A stretch of DNA of 64,000 nt, taken from contig NVQB01000001.1 in NCBI GenBank assembly GCA_002319075.1, positions 62,001 through 126,000 on the forward strand, written 5' to 3'. The notes under the pieces are model-generated. The model had not been told where the DNA came from. It made no database searches and saw only the letters and a program-made list of their open reading frames with translations. Source of the stretch: Sphingobacteriaceae bacterium (GTDB taxonomy: Bacteria > Bacteroidota > Bacteroidia > B-17B0 > Aurantibacillaceae). Numbering within the stretch: position 1 is the stretch's first letter; each line of letters opens with the position of its first letter. The position numbers and the translations under genes were made by a program. Of this stretch, positions 23,069 to 30,013 are shown piece by piece.

Positions 23069-23101
23069 TTTGGTGGTGTTAAAATAAATGCACTAAATTT
23101 G
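23069..23101 (+). promoter_or_regulatory. Promoter of the methionine operon
   Basis: TTTG at 23069-23072 and TAAATTTG at 23094-23101 (exact TAnnTTTG) are separated by 21 bases, the spacing expected of a Bacteroidota housekeeping promoter. Transcription would start near 23107, just upstream of the SAM riboswitch. Confidence 0.7.
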
Positions 23102-23130: not shown

Positions 23131-23283
23131 TTTTAATTTATTAAGAAGTGGTGAGAGAATAGGCTCGATGACCCACTGGCAACCAACTAGAAGCGCTTCC
23201 TTTTAACCGGAAGTGTTGGAAAACAGGTGCCAACTCCTACTCTGATCCCGATAGCAATAGGGACAGAGGTAAATAAATTAAAA
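23131..23283 (+). ncRNA. SAM-I-type (S box) riboswitch
   Basis: The core elements of the SAM-I family are in order: the AAGAAGTGGTGAGAGAAT region with the kink-turn of P2, GGCTCGATGACCC, CTGGCAACC, and later AGGTGCCAACTCCTAC with P4 and a closing stem. P1 is an unbroken 12-bp helix between 23131-23142 and 23272-23283. It binds S-adenosylmethionine and lowers expression of methionine synthesis. No terminator hairpin with a T-run follows. Instead the 3' strand of P1 ends 8 bases before the ATG of a short upstream ORF, so P1 formation would bury the ribosome landing site of that ORF. An ATG-TAA start-stop pair lies at 23284-23289. Confidence 0.88.
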
Positions 23284-23291
23284 ATGTAAAA

Positions 23292-23411
23292 ATGAAACAC
23301 GCAAAAATCACAAACAAAAAAGACACCCTGTCTAAAGTATTTAATTCGGATTCGCCTGCTCAATTCTTAATGATGATGTGTTGTATGTGCTGCTGTTGCT
23401 GCATGTGCTAA
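23292..23411 (+). CDS. Met/Cys-rich leader peptide between the SAM riboswitch and metX
   Basis: 39 aa: a basic N-terminal half (MKHAKITNKKDTLSKV) and a C terminus FLMMMCCMCCCCCMC. All of the last 13 residues are Met or Cys (5 Met, 8 Cys). It begins 8 bases after the riboswitch and ends 124 bases before the next ORF. Such a composition is hard to explain as a structural protein but is what a ribosome-stalling leader would need in order to sense charged Met-tRNA and Cys-tRNA, the end products of the operon. Poly-Cys upstream ORFs with this role are known in mycobacteria. A metal-binding peptide is the alternative. Confidence 0.75.
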   Translation: MKHAKITNKKDTLSKVFNSDSPAQFLMMMCCMCCCCCMC

Positions 23412-23450
23412 ACTGATTTTTCTCTAAACTCTTACTGGAAAATTAAACCA

Positions 23451-23464
23451 GCCGGCCCCCCGGC
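23451..23464 (+). promoter_or_regulatory. Short GC hairpin in the metX leader
   Basis: GCCGG at 23451-23455 pairs with CCGGC at 23460-23464 across a CCCC loop. It stands out in an AT-rich leader, 40 bases after the Met/Cys ORF and 70 before the next start codon. There is no following T-run, so it is not a standard terminator. It may be part of the attenuation switch. Confidence 0.4.
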
Positions 23465-23534
23465 AGATGTTGTGCATTTCTGTTTCAGGAATCTCACATC
23501 ACAATTCACATTATTCATCATTAAAAAAATTATC

Positions 23535-23765
23535 ATGAGCCAACATAAATCAAATTTCAATTTATCACAAGAGGTTAACCTTCTGGAAAACGAAAACTAC
23601 AAAAATTATCTATCCATTATTTCCGAATACGGTGTTGCTCAAAGCGGCGGCTCCTTTCCGATCAGTCTGGCGCTGCAGGCCAGGAGACTTGTATTCGACG
23701 TCAACCTTTTGGTTTCGCCGGAAAGAAAACACGTTGTTTATTCAGAAATAATTTCAAAAAACTAA
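23535..23765 (+). CDS. Small protein of unknown function in the methionine operon
   Basis: 76 aa from the ATG at 23535; the longer frame from 23472 overlaps leader structure and is less likely. No signal peptide or membrane segment. The middle reads NYLSIISEYGVAQSGGSFPISLALQARRLVFDVNLLV, compatible with a small alpha/beta fold. I recognise no family. It lies 18 bases upstream of metX and is surely in the same transcript, so a role in sulfur amino acid synthesis or in coupling the leader to metX translation is possible. Confidence 0.6.
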   Translation: MSQHKSNFNLSQEVNLLENENYKNYLSIISEYGVAQSGGSFPISLALQARRLVFDVNLLVSPERKHVVYSEIISKN

Positions 23766-23783
23766 TTATAATCCACACCCGAA

Positions 23784-24863
23784 ATGTCAGAATCTATTTT
23801 CAAATACCACAAAAATTTTCCGCTCGAAAATGGCGGAAGTATTCCCGCCCTTGAAATTGTATACCATACATACGGCACCTTAAACGCCGATCGTTCAAAT
23901 GTGATCTGGGTTGCTCACGCGCTAACGGCTAACAGCAACGTGTTTGACTGGTGGAATGGGTTGTTCGGAGAAAATTCATTCTATAATGCAAAAGACTACT
24001 TTATTGTGTGCGCAAACAATCTTGGGTCTTGTTATGGAACTACCGGCCCTCTCAGCCACAATAGTCATATTAACGCTGCCTGGTTTGATTACTTTCCGCA
24101 AATCACTATTAAGGATATGGTTCAGACTTTTGACCTGCTACGTCAGCATTTAGGACTGGAAAAAATCCACACGCTTATTGGCGGCTCGCAAGGCGGACAA
24201 ATTGCACTGGAATGGTCCTTATCTCATCCGGATCTGGCAGAGCATCTTATTCTTGTAGCCACAAATGCGCAACATTCACCCTGGGGCATTGCTTTTAATG
24301 AATCTCAGCGCCTTGCTATTAAAGCCGACCGCACTTACTATTCAAACACACACGATGGCGGCGTAAAAGGGCTTGCTGCAGCCAGAAGCATGGCTTTATT
24401 AAGTTACCGTGGTTATGAAACTTATGCGCAAACTCAAAAGGATGCGCAGGTTGAAAAAACACGCAACTTTAACGCGGCGTCTTACCAACGTTACCAGGGC
24501 GAAAAACTAGTACAACGCTTCAATGCATATTCTTATGTGCGTTTGCTGGATGCCATGGATAGTCATAATATCAGTCGCGGAAGAAATTCAGGTTTGGAAG
24601 AAGTGCTAGCTACAGTGAAATCTCAAACCCTTGTCATATCAGTGTCCAGCGACATTCTTTTTCCCGTATCAGAACAAAAGTTTTTAGCAGAGCATATCAA
24701 AGATTCAACCTACGCAAGCATTGACTCAGCTTATGGACATGATGGATTTTTGATCGAAACTGAAAAATTAGCGCAGCTTATCTCCAGCTTTTATAAGTCA
24801 CGGAAAAAAAATCCTGCAGCAAAAAAAGAAAGTAGAAAACAAAATTTATTAATCTCTCTATAA
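23784..24863 (+). CDS. metX: Homoserine O-acetyltransferase
   Basis: 359 aa, alpha/beta hydrolase fold. It acetylates homoserine with acetyl-CoA, activating it for sulfhydrylation. The nucleophile is Ser135 in GGSQGGQIALEW, and the acid and histidine lie in VSSDILFPVSEQ and YGHDGFLIE near the C terminus. The NAQHSPWGIAFNESQRLAI stretch is typical of MetX. It is the first recognised enzyme of the operon and lies 8 bases before hom, in a unit controlled by the SAM riboswitch. The partner sulfhydrylase is encoded at the operon end. Confidence 0.96.
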   Translation: MSESIFKYHKNFPLENGGSIPALEIVYHTYGTLNADRSNVIWVAHALTANSNVFDWWNGLFGENSFYNAKDYFIVCANNLGSCYGTTGPLSHNSHINAAWFDYFPQITIKDMVQTFDLLRQHLGLEKIHTLIGGSQGGQIALEWSLSHPDLAEHLILVATNAQHSPWGIAFNESQRLAIKADRTYYSNTHDGGVKGLAAARSMALLSYRGYETYAQTQKDAQVEKTRNFNAASYQRYQGEKLVQRFNAYSYVRLLDAMDSHNISRGRNSGLEEVLATVKSQTLVISVSSDILFPVSEQKFLAEHIKDSTYASIDSAYGHDGFLIETEKLAQLISSFYKSRKKNPAAKKESRKQNLLISL

Positions 24864-24871
24864 CATACAAA

Positions 24872-26128
24872 ATGGCAAAAAAATTAAAAATAGGTCTGTT
24901 TGGATTTGGCGTTGTTGGACAAGGCTTATATCATGTATTAAATAACAGTACCGGCTTTACAGCTGATATTGTAAAGATCGCAGTAAAAAACAAAGAGAAG
25001 GAACGCAGCATTTCAAAGGATCATATTACCTACGATAAATGGGAAATACTTGACAACCCGGAGATCGATGTGATTGTAGAGCTGATTGATGATGCGGACG
25101 AAGCATTTCACATTGTGAGTGAAGCATTAAAACGTGGAAAACACGTGGTGAGTGCTAATAAAAAAATGCTTGCTCTCCATTTGGAAGAACTATATGCTTT
25201 ACAGTTAAAATACAATGTCTCGCTTTTGTATGAGGGCGCTGCGTGTGGAAGCATCCCTATTCTTCGTACCCTTGAAGAATACTTTGATAACGAAGAACTC
25301 GAAAAAATAACCGGTATTTTCAACGGCACAACGAATTATATTTTAAGTAAAACCATCAACGAAAACCTTTCCTATCCTGAAGCACTGAAACAAGCGCAGG
25401 AAAAAGGCTTTGCAGAATCTGACCCCACAAACGATGTAGAAGGTTTTGATCCCAAATTTAAAGCGGTGATTCTTGCTCTTCACGCTTTTGGGTTGATCAT
25501 AAAACCAGAAGAAATCTTAAATCTTGGCATAACAACTTTAACTGAGAATGATATCCGCTACGCTTCTGAAAAAGGCTACAAATTAAAATTGACGCCCGTA
25601 ATTCAACGTTTAAAAAACAATAAAGTAACAGCGCTTGTAGCACCACGTTTTGTGAAAGAAAGCAGTCAATTGTTTAATGTAGAGAACGAATTTAACGGTG
25701 TTATTGTAGAAGGCCGGTTTTCAGGAGAACAGTTTTTGCAGGGTCGCGGCGCGGGCAGTTTACCTACCGGAGCGGCAGTGCTGTCTGATATCTCCGCTCT
25801 TTCTTACGGCTATAAATATGAATACAAAAAGCACACCCAGGTGCATGCCGCTGAATTTACAGATGATGTGTTGGTTGAAATTTATTTAAGATATACTACC
25901 GCCAAAGACCTTGAACACATAACCTTTGAAGAAGTGACGGAAAAATATACCGGAAGCGAATACAATTATAACATCGGAAAAGTGAATCTCAGAACACTGA
26001 TCGCTAACCGGGACTACATTTTAAAAAACAATTTATTTGTGTCTTTAATAAATGAGACTGTTTCTCTTAAAACAGCGGAAGATACAACCGATAAACAAAA
26101 AGCAATGAAGACGGCATTTTCAGCTTAA
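24872..26128 (+). CDS. hom: Homoserine dehydrogenase
   Basis: 418 aa. It reduces aspartate semialdehyde to homoserine with NAD(P)H. The Rossmann signature GLFGFGVVGQGLY is at the N terminus, followed by SANKKMLALH, NGTTNYIL and the catalytic-domain motif ESDPTNDVEGFD. The C-terminal ~80 residues are short and divergent, without a clear ACT domain, suggesting weak feedback control at protein level, consistent with riboswitch control. It is a monofunctional enzyme, not fused to aspartokinase. It lies between metX and the peroxiredoxin gene. Confidence 0.95.
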   Translation: MAKKLKIGLFGFGVVGQGLYHVLNNSTGFTADIVKIAVKNKEKERSISKDHITYDKWEILDNPEIDVIVELIDDADEAFHIVSEALKRGKHVVSANKKMLALHLEELYALQLKYNVSLLYEGAACGSIPILRTLEEYFDNEELEKITGIFNGTTNYILSKTINENLSYPEALKQAQEKGFAESDPTNDVEGFDPKFKAVILALHAFGLIIKPEEILNLGITTLTENDIRYASEKGYKLKLTPVIQRLKNNKVTALVAPRFVKESSQLFNVENEFNGVIVEGRFSGEQFLQGRGAGSLPTGAAVLSDISALSYGYKYEYKKHTQVHAAEFTDDVLVEIYLRYTTAKDLEHITFEEVTEKYTGSEYNYNIGKVNLRTLIANRDYILKNNLFVSLINETVSLKTAEDTTDKQKAMKTAFSA

Positions 26129-28427: not shown

Positions 28428-28841
28428 ATGAAAATAAATATAAAACGGATTGGTGAAAATTTCAACCTTCAGGCTACCAGTGAAGAAGGGCATGCTTTTA
28501 TAATGGACGCTTCACAAGACATTGGCGGCGAAAATACAGGAATGCGGCCTATGCAGGTTTTGTTAAGCTCTTTAGGAGGCTGCAGCGCTATTGACGTGAT
28601 ACTCATTCTGAAAAAACAGAAACAGGAAGTAGATTCCTTTGAGGTAGAACTTACAGGCGATCGTGAAAAGATCGAAGACTACTCGCTCTTTAAGAACATC
28701 ATTCTTCACTTTAAAATAAAGGGAAAGCTAGAGTTTGAAAAAGTAGAACGCGCCGTAAAGCTTTCGCTCGAAAAATACTGCTCCGTAGCAAAAACACTTG
28801 AACCCACAGCAAACATTACTTACAAAATCACTTTAAACTAA
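28428..28841 (+). CDS. OsmC-family peroxiredoxin-like protein
   Basis: 137 aa, the usual length. OsmC proteins reduce organic hydroperoxides or persulfides using two cysteines; here they are Cys52 (SSLGGCSAIDV) and Cys118 (LEKYCSVAKTL), both in the expected places. Its stop overlaps the start of the sulfhydrylase gene by one base, so the two are translationally coupled. This coupling to a sulfide-using enzyme suggests handling of reactive sulfur by-products, though that is inference. Confidence 0.93.
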   Translation: MKINIKRIGENFNLQATSEEGHAFIMDASQDIGGENTGMRPMQVLLSSLGGCSAIDVILILKKQKQEVDSFEVELTGDREKIEDYSLFKNIILHFKIKGKLEFEKVERAVKLSLEKYCSVAKTLEPTANITYKITLN

Positions 28842-30013
28842 TGAACGACAAACATTTTGAAACACAAGCCATCCGCGCGCAAATGGAGCGGAGTCAATAC
28901 AACGAACATTCTGCTCCGCTTTACCTTACCTCCAGTTTTGTATTTGATACCGCTGAAGAAATGCGCGCAGCCTTTAATGATGAATCTCATGAGTTTATAT
29001 ACTCACGTTACAGTAATCCAAACACCGATGAGTTTGTGTATAAAATGTGTTTATTGGAAGGCGCCGAGTCCGGACTAAGCTTCGCCTCTGGCATGGCCGC
29101 CATTTATAACAGCATGGCTGCCTTGCTGAAGTCTGGTGACCATGTGATATCCTGTTCTTCAGTTTTCGGTGCCACCCATACCATTTTTCATAAATACTTT
29201 CCTAAATGGAATATCACTTATTCGTATTTCGACGCTAATAAGCCTGAACAAATTGAAAGCCTGGTAAAAAAAGAATCTAAAATTTTGTTTGTGGAAACGC
29301 CTACAAATCCTGCCATTGAGGTTATTGATCTGGAACTACTTGGTAAGCTGGCTAAGAAACACAACTTAATTTTGATCGTCGACAATTGTTTTGCCACTCC
29401 CTACATTCAAAAGCCAATTATTTATGGGGCTGACATTGTTGTGCACTCCGCTACCAAGTATATCGACGGACAAGGCCGTGTACTGGGCGGTGTAGCTGTT
29501 GGAAAAACAGATCTTATCAAAGAAATTTATTTGTTCAGTCGTATTACCGGACCTTCGCTCTCTCCTTTTAACGCCTGGACCTTGAGTAAAAGTCTCGAGA
29601 CCCTGGCCTTACGCATGGACCGTCATTGCGAAAATGCTTTGTTCGTTGCCGAAAAACTAGAGAGCAGCACCCAACTTGATTTTGTGAAATATCCTTTTTT
29701 AAAGTCACATCCCCACTATGAACTTGCAAAAAAACAAATGAAATTAGGTGGCGGAATTATTACTTTTTCTGTAAAAGGCGGTTATGAATCGGCGAAGAAA
29801 TTCCTTGACGCGTTAAAAATGATTAAGATCTCTCCCAACTTAGGAGACTCGCGCAGCATTGCCACGCATCCCGCCTCTTCTACCCATTGCAAACTCAGCG
29901 AAGAAGAACGCCTGGCAGTAGGCATATTACCCGGACTCATTCGTATATCTGTAGGGCTTGAAAATAAAGAAGATATTATAAATGATATTTTGCAGGCTTT
30001 GAAATCAACTTAA
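28841..30013 (+). CDS. metZ: PLP-dependent O-acyl-homoserine sulfhydrylase (MetZ/MetY type)
   Basis: 390 aa of the Cys/Met metabolism PLP family. The PLP lysine is Lys206 in VHSATKYIDGQG; Asp181 (IVDNCFATP) contacts the cofactor ring. Length and the SSFVFDTAEEMRAAF start fit MetZ-type O-succinyl/O-acetyl-homoserine sulfhydrylases, which make homocysteine directly from sulfide. As metX supplies O-acetylhomoserine, the acetyl ester is the likely substrate. Cystathionine synthase or lyase activity cannot be excluded from sequence alone. It is the last gene of the operon. Confidence 0.9.
   Translation: MNDKHFETQAIRAQMERSQYNEHSAPLYLTSSFVFDTAEEMRAAFNDESHEFIYSRYSNPNTDEFVYKMCLLEGAESGLSFASGMAAIYNSMAALLKSGDHVISCSSVFGATHTIFHKYFPKWNITYSYFDANKPEQIESLVKKESKILFVETPTNPAIEVIDLELLGKLAKKHNLILIVDNCFATPYIQKPIIYGADIVVHSATKYIDGQGRVLGGVAVGKTDLIKEIYLFSRITGPSLSPFNAWTLSKSLETLALRMDRHCENALFVAEKLESSTQLDFVKYPFLKSHPHYELAKKQMKLGGGIITFSVKGGYESAKKFLDALKMIKISPNLGDSRSIATHPASSTHCKLSEEERLAVGILPGLIRISVGLENKEDIINDILQALKST

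Follow-up and report, generated by a model that had tools for sequence, protein, structure and literature searches.

Among the described systems closest to the locus presented here are tandems of a SAM-I riboswitch and a T-box for methionine tRNA; the available text of one report names nine examples, seven of them of the NOT A AND B type (PMC9481103). Aptamers can also lie in front of short upstream ORFs, and for ppe2 the accessible portions of two reports describe translation of such an ORF as needed for the gene (PMC12810186, PMC11260477).

Here, we describe a locus in which a SAM-I riboswitch is followed by a short leader ORF ending in a run of Met and Cys codons. It would combine, in one leader of fixed geometry, a riboswitch with a leader-peptide attenuator, both of them textbook forms of RNA control. 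The first-pass annotation of this DNA knew of no described system with such a combination in Bacteroidota, and a search of main texts in the open-access literature likewise found, among the papers listed, no account of a SAM riboswitch coupled to a leader peptide for Cys or Met. The same search found few leader-peptide attenuators in Bacteroidota. Mycobacterial Cys leader ORFs are, going by the title of work by Canestrari from 2020, reportedly leaderless.

The leader region upstream of metX

The window, by which we mean the whole analysed stretch of 64,000 nt, comprises positions 62,001-126,000 of the forward strand of contig NVQB01000001.1 (GCA_002319075.1, Sphingobacteriaceae bacterium, Aurantibacillaceae). 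The locus contains the following features.

23069..23101, + strand: Bacteroidota-type promoter, with -33 element TTTG (23069-23072) and -7 element TAAATTTG (23094-23101)
23131..23283, + strand: SAM-I riboswitch aptamer with extended 12-bp P1 (RF00162, 62.7 bits; minimum-energy fold)
23292..23411, + strand: leader ORF of 39 codons, the final 13 of which (23370-23408) are Met or Cys only
23414..23445, + strand: hairpin A, a candidate antiterminator or protector (fold; helix 2 of the close-relative alignment, 92.1% of cells paired)
23451..23464, + strand: hairpin B, GCCGG-CCCC-CCGGC, a candidate termination or pause hairpin, in the window without a clean U-tract (fold; helix 3 of the close-relative alignment, 87.0% of cells paired)
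23466..23500, + strand: hairpin C, GATGT...ACATC (fold; a hairpin lies here in 7 of 8 other close sequences, G034 folding otherwise)
23535..23765, + strand: conserved small protein of 76 aa, inside a longer GTG-started frame
23784..24863, + strand: metX, homoserine O-acetyltransferase (TIGR01392, E 1.4e-101, 340 bits, under the curated cut-off of 500)
24872..26128, + strand: homoserine dehydrogenase gene, next 3' of metX (PF00742, E 5.4e-53)

The aptamer matches the Rfam covariance model RF00162 at 23135-23279 (+) with 62.7 bits, compared to a gathering score of 44.4. Its P1 pairs 23131-23142 with 23272-23283 in the minimum-energy fold, and the genes 3' of it, metX and the homoserine dehydrogenase gene, are sulfur/methionine genes. 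SAM is the presumed ligand of this and of the other leader-bearing aptamers. The leader ORF translates to MKHAKITNKKDTLSKVFNSDSPAQFLMMMCCMCCCCCMC (39 aa), whose C-terminus MMMCCMCCCCCMC comprises 5 Met and 8 Cys ahead of the stop codon TAA (23409-23411). Clustered codons for amino acids of the pathway within a short ORF are the mark of a leader-peptide attenuator, and here 13 Met/Cys codons are accompanied by a distinct tail composition and by selection on the tail. Met and Cys trinucleotides make up 4.6% of the window; about 5e-13 runs of at least 13 such codons are expected per window in six frames, and the second-longest run in the window has 4 codons. Hairpin A begins two bases past the leader stop codon. 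An S-box aptamer with a 12-bp P1, a 39-codon ORF with its Met/Cys ending, a GC hairpin (23451-23464), a small ORF and metX had all been pointed out in the first-pass annotation, and these parts are borne out by the RF00162 match and the fold, by the sequence itself and by profile matches. A tandem riboswitch, made of two aptamers or of an aptamer and a T-box, would require two RNA elements that each bind a ligand or tRNA directly, and the RF00162 match is the sole one in the window at Rfam gathering score.

The start-stop ATG TAA at 23284-23289, between P1 and the leader start, is a possible minimal uORF. Another observation concerns L083 and other metH-type sites of the family: by eye, the window's genome reads GGTGGGAA where GGTGCCAA is usual, perhaps with a covarying P3, and of the 40 classified sites with aptamers lacking GTGC, 36 come from the window's genus, mostly at metH. 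The window copy of the 76-aa protein, which has the motif NLL...GG..P...RL...N.L...E...N, matches nothing in Pfam or NCBIfam up to E 0.1. With the exception of G024, every one of the 22 family sites (21 of 22) has an ORF of this type, placed after the leader and before metX or metY.

Conservation and distribution of the pairing

Is this combination a peculiarity of a single genome? RF00162 is present in 56 of 60 related genomes. Within the window's family the leader stands at all 22 SAM-I sites before metX (18) or metY (4) and at none of those before metH (0/37) or metB/CGL (0/2), nor at unclassified ones (0/4); the second SAM-I site of the window's genome precedes metH and has no Met/Cys leader ORF. 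The 22 sites come from 22 of the 39 family genomes sampled (37 of the genus plus G179 and G209); in the remaining ones the search turned up no SAM-I site upstream of either gene. This comparison lends support to the two stacked sensors suggested in the first-pass annotation. Loss or frameshift of the leader in close relatives that keep the riboswitch, a possibility it had raised, is not seen: the 22 metX/metY sites of the family, and with them the nine close sequences compared, all keep an open, in-frame ORF with a Cys-rich tail. The check it had proposed, whether the tail is kept while the N-terminal half of the peptide drifts, gives pN/pS values of 0.29 for the tail and 0.84 for the body (pairwise counts among these nine sequences, without a tree).

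The tail is not strictly kept in close relatives, as it contains W, S and A in G019, Y in G026 and two I in G034. Over 50 leader sites, Cys accounts for 304 of 600 tail residues, and Met for 88 of the 296 non-Cys tail residues compared to 27 of 1286 body residues; without the other members of the genus, the counts for Met are 42 of 189 and 18 of 812. No position of the Met codon ATG matches the Cys codons TGT and TGC. A conserved RNA repeat alone therefore does not explain the Met enrichment. Judging from its pN/pS, the tail is under coding constraint. When the genus was searched with the Cys motif, allowing two mismatches gave mostly unrelated matches; exact matches occur in eight genus genomes, in seven of them at known leader places; the eighth genome is G421.

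SAM-I is found in 286 of 395 genomes of the class. Our set of 228 SAM-I sites in 134 genomes is not a random sample: it was drawn from 60 related genomes, from 28 new loci among the matches listed for the 395 genomes, and from 56 genomes chosen mostly for two or more SAM-I matches, other such genomes being left out. Six of the 228 scored under the Rfam gathering score, and metX sites with an aptamer missed by stricter filters fall outside the counts. A leader was counted if an ORF of 10-100 aa, starting -10 to +120 from P1, had at least 3 Cys in its last 12 residues. Two such ORFs, L153 and L219, looked like chance matches by eye and were left out of the 50-site counts, and L053 (metH), also on the drop list, did not qualify. 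Evident Cys/Met-rich tails at L229 of G396 (cysH) and L170 of G407 (metY) fall below this definition and count as leaderless. Sites were classed by comparison with reference MetX, CysH, CysD, MetY, MetB/CGL and MetH, themselves checked against NCBIfam: CysH, CysD and MetY pass the cut-off, and MetX, MetB/CGL (best match: the cystathionine gamma-lyase model) and the partial MetH match strongly below theirs.

Across all sites the leader is found at metX in 22 of 29 cases, at metY in 20 of 36 and at cysH in 4 of 5, but never at metH (0/115) or metB/CGL (0/20), which rules out a general property of SAM-I leaders; other genes account for 6 of 23, two of these being the ones dropped as chance. Outside the family, 24 of 48 metX/metY/cysH sites carry it versus 0 of 96 at metH or metB/CGL (Fisher p 2.4e-14, for sites that are related and not a random sample), so half of the non-family metX/metY/cysH sites lack a leader by the definition used. 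The 23 leader-bearing genomes outside the family belong to ten further families, which makes 11 families in all, and the leader precedes cysH-cysD as well as metX and metY. The pairing is real, widespread and specific.

SAM-I with a Cys-rich leader also occurs before other genes (L222, L213, L202 and L242, in genomes G093 and G396): a RimK-like ATP-grasp gene by profile match (L222), a gene that looks alike by eye (L213), an amino-acid permease gene (L202) and one TonB-linked by eye only (L242). These present a possible extension of the regulon.

The position of the leader is closely fixed. At 49 of 50 sites the ORF begins -3 to 20 nt past the end of the extended P1; G144 is the exception with 111 nt, and the median for the full set of 50 is 7.5 nt. 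From the model's P1 the distance is at most 21 nt, again at 49 of 50 sites. In the window P1 ends about 8-9 nt before the leader AUG. P1 is thus placed in the initiation region of the ORF, as expected of a riboswitch-gated upstream ORF. The metH gene start follows P1 at a median of 81 nt (115 sites, 6 within 21 nt) and that of metB/CGL at 137.5 nt (20 sites, none within 21 nt). The pattern TTKG-N18-23-TANNTTTG, which we take to be the Bacteroidota promoter consensus, occurs in the 150 nt ahead of the aptamer at 38 of 49 leader-bearing sites (mean in mononucleotide shuffles, 0.22).

A scan of 84,980 genomes for the gapless motif CCCCMC-stop returned 39 stretches, compared to about four chance matches estimated by hand with equal base frequencies. 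SAM-I lies just upstream of 24 of the 35 stretches scanned with cmscan, and the other four (L099, L106, L116, L118) probably correspond to SAM-I-bearing contigs of G008, G002, G024 and G036. Judged by title or genus name, the organisms with SAM-I are Bacteroidota, namely seven Pontibacter, Botryobacter, Solitalea, Mucilaginibacter, Parachryseolinea, Crocinitomicaceae and MAGs; in one Pontibacter (L098) the genes that follow the leader are a phosphoadenylyl-sulfate reductase gene and cysD. Eleven stretches are without SAM-I. They include L096 (Bacteroidota bacterium) and L111 (Chitinophaga pinensis MAG), where the leader lies before genes that are by eye metY-like and metX-like and where no SAM-I appears even at E up to 1. 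Among the eight further ones without SAM-I, L094, L102 and L105 are Bacteroidota and need not be chance matches. Five more candidates for leader-only metY loci (L315, L319, L320, L327, L331) have no SAM-I upstream of metY at Rfam gathering score; they come from 29 metY loci, which together with the motif scan are where leader-only loci were sought. Since leaders without SAM-I exist and SAM-I without a leader is common, the two modules are separable, and with sites that have or lack each of them the assembly of a two-input switch becomes directly testable.

One of these loci, L331, has a SAM-I downstream of metY, while the match found upstream of the gene is to SAM-II and on the other strand; such opposite-strand SAM-II matches near metY loci belong to family f54 (L331:540-646 - and L333:969-1071 -). 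A Herbinix sp. MAG, presumably a firmicute, has a CCSCCCCMC leader (L104:4229-4249 -) before a gene for a transporter of the dicarboxylate/amino-acid symporter type, which matches below all cut-offs and which we suspect to be a cystine transporter. This leader has no Rfam match up to E 1 and is perhaps an independent Cys leader.

A proposed two-input switch and its rivals

How might the two elements work together? A gap of at most 21 nt between P1 and the leader leaves too little room for a separate terminator, and a leader start this close to P1 suggests that the aptamer works by way of the leader and not in parallel with it. According to the available part of one study, Shine-Dalgarno sequences are generally absent in Bacteroidota, and in Prevotella a structure of -5.2 kcal/mol that includes the upstream SD region cut protein five-fold while strong structure 20 bp upstream does not inhibit (PMC3155529). 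Given a P1 that ends close to the AUG, a phylum generally lacking SD sequences and this effect of structure at the start, we therefore propose that SAM-bound P1 blocks initiation on the leader. SAM would thus probably gate the translation of a leader that senses Met/Cys-tRNA.

In the scheme we propose, the first input would be SAM, bound by the SAM-I aptamer, and the second charged Cys-tRNA, in many lineages also Met-tRNA, read by the ribosome translating the leader. With SAM bound, P1 would close some 8 nt upstream of the leader AUG and block initiation; with SAM scarce, it would open and the leader would be translated. Should Cys or Met be scarce as well, the ribosome would stall in the run, the sequence past the stop would be free to pair, and transcription would run on into metX, metY or cysH. 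With plentiful Cys/Met the ribosome would reach the stop and cover that sequence, and a downstream hairpin would end or pause transcription; the hairpins past the leader stop probably set read-through. The net outcome would be ON only when SAM and Cys/Met-tRNA charging are both low. On balance, we think it rather probable that the locus is a composite cis-regulatory leader of this kind, with two inputs, serving sulfur assimilation. Support is strong for the two-sensor reading, and the comparison of sites supports the pairing of two sensors well, whereas the working as an AND gate is a proposal.

The sequence past the leader bears on the output step. The 105 nt past the leader stop carry more structure than shuffles do (mean z -2.06 at 50 sites, -1.84 at the 31 sites without other genus members); counted from the leader start, the first 105 nt show none (mean z -0.06), and the sequence upstream of the aptamer has a z of -0.51 (36 sites). 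Terminator-like hairpins past the stop also exceed shuffles, with 22 of 50 sites, or 13 of 31 without other genus members, at p<0.1. Structure after P1 is equally strong where there is no leader, at metH (-1.94, 96 sites) and metB/CGL (-2.68, 20 sites), and structure past the leader is therefore no proof of an attenuator. We take the leader ORF to be placed between the aptamer and hairpins which, at other sites, come directly behind the aptamer.

In the consensus fold, a helix inside the Cys run borders on hairpin A and does not compete with it, and the mutually exclusive arms of a textbook attenuator are thus not demonstrated. A stem beginning just past the leader stop is found at p<0.05 in 5 of 50 sites (combined p 0.0024, a weak test on related sequences). 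Three helices are kept in 94% of cells among nine close relatives, and covariation is slight: four pairs changed on both sides, a number reached by 7 of 500 shuffles, with three pairs after a one-column slide. In several close relatives hairpin A competes, by eye, with a longer form of hairpin B, and the window is without this longer form. A terminator scan found no plus-strand intrinsic terminator with a U-tract in the window, and G037 has a clean U-tract hairpin past its leader. No conserved terminator hairpin was found for Mycobacterium Cys leaders either, as stated in the available part of that report (PMC1262725). Our best guess for the output step is attenuation by an intrinsic hairpin, Rho or translation.

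The leader could give its output without an intrinsic terminator, if the ribosome opened or hid the start of the next ORF or left an untranslated stretch to Rho. The window's lack of a U-tract terminator fits this idea, and there are Rho precedents, shown for a riboswitch-gated uORF and proposed for actinobacterial Cys leaders in the text available of the two sources (PMC12810186, PMC1262725). The clean hairpin of G037, the overall enrichment of terminator-like hairpins, and a next ORF that begins 123 nt past the leader stop in the window speak against it. We regard this as the less likely course but give it real weight; it competes with the output step only, and its chances overlap those of our best explanation. 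A different logic would follow from two independent sensors in series, where the aptamer takes its own route, by long-range pairing with the downstream hairpins, the leader attenuates separately, and either signal alone derepresses or represses. That modules are separable in evolution, as seen from the leader-only loci L096 and L111, the five metY candidates and the many SAM-I sites without leader, would agree with independence. However, the gap in 49 of 50 sites is too short for a separate terminator, no structure is seen over the leader stretch, and independence would not require such spacing, which makes this reading unlikely in our eyes.

The tail itself invites two other explanations. A functional Cys-rich peptide, e.g. 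one binding metal or sulfide, that happens to lie in the operon would account for the conserved Cys-rich C-terminus, but the number and pattern of Cys vary, the run is at the C-terminus and is tied to SAM-I at sulfur genes, and both the drifting body (pN/pS 0.84) and the absence of a Pfam or NCBIfam family match lead us to reject this explanation as very improbable. A chance run or a simple (TGY)n repeat without function is hardly conceivable: the window's genome does hold two other TGY5 stretches, which look unrelated, yet the expected count is vanishingly small, Met is interspersed among the Cys, and one position is kept across 11 families. The comparative data refute it.

Would the proposed two-input switch make sense for the cell? 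MetX and MetY or a MetZ-like enzyme make homocysteine, which by this route can feed both methionine/SAM and cysteine. In the window, the gene at 28841-30013 best matches the O-succinylhomoserine sulfhydrylase model (490 bits, cut-off 522). A cystathionine beta-synthase match in the window's genome scores 489.8 bits, just short of the cut-off of 510, whereas no CysE match reaches its cut-off (best 48 of 211 bits); among 14 control genomes 8 pass the CysE cut-off and none that of cystathionine beta-synthase. With such a match and no CysE match above cut-off, cysteine may well come from homocysteine in this genome, and if so, sensing SAM and Cys-tRNA at metX makes sense. If the two-input reading is true, the leader would amount to a natural AND gate whose physiological sense is clear.

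Relation to known systems

In a broader reading, the locus would represent a new architecture, in which the expression platform of a metabolite aptamer is the initiation region of a leader ORF sensing tRNA charging. It would form a serial AND gate, in which low SAM allows sensing and low Cys/Met-tRNA then triggers the response. Bacteroidota would use it widely in sulfur assimilation, and evolution would have put it together from two modules that are each found alone as well. We put this forward tentatively, at slightly less than an even chance.

Leader-peptide attenuation has also been inferred in another member of the Bacteroidota, Flavobacterium psychrophilum (PMC9723704), and short leader ORFs are known from Bacteroides thetaiotaomicron (PMC7366714); unlike the window, neither report, in its available part, presents a sulfur operon or a combination with a riboswitch. 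In Rhodobacterales, uORFC-8-2 before cysS is likewise a candidate for ribosome-mediated attenuation reading Cys-tRNA, but it has two tandem Cys codons only, differs in gene and phylum, and comes with no mention of a riboswitch in the text available (PMC8632094). The actinobacterial Cys leader ORFs are similar in having a Cys run near the stop of a short ORF before sulfur genes. They differ in phylum, and the accessible part of their description mentions no riboswitch such as is present here (PMC1262725).

A likeness of another kind is found in Mbox-pe20 and B12-ppe2 of M. tuberculosis, where an aptamer controls a short upstream ORF. In contrast to the window leader, these ORFs are not described as amino-acid sensors in the available parts of the reports, and ligand, phylum and genes differ (PMC12810186, PMC11260477). 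In the SAM-I/T-box(Met) tandems, finally, one mRNA leader reads SAM by SAM-I and tRNA by a second element, as proposed here. In those tandems, as far as the source was available, it is the T-box RNA that binds the tRNA, whereas here a translated leader ORF would sense it (PMC9481103); and where the tandems respond to Met-tRNA, the present leader would read mainly Cys, from a start that abuts P1.
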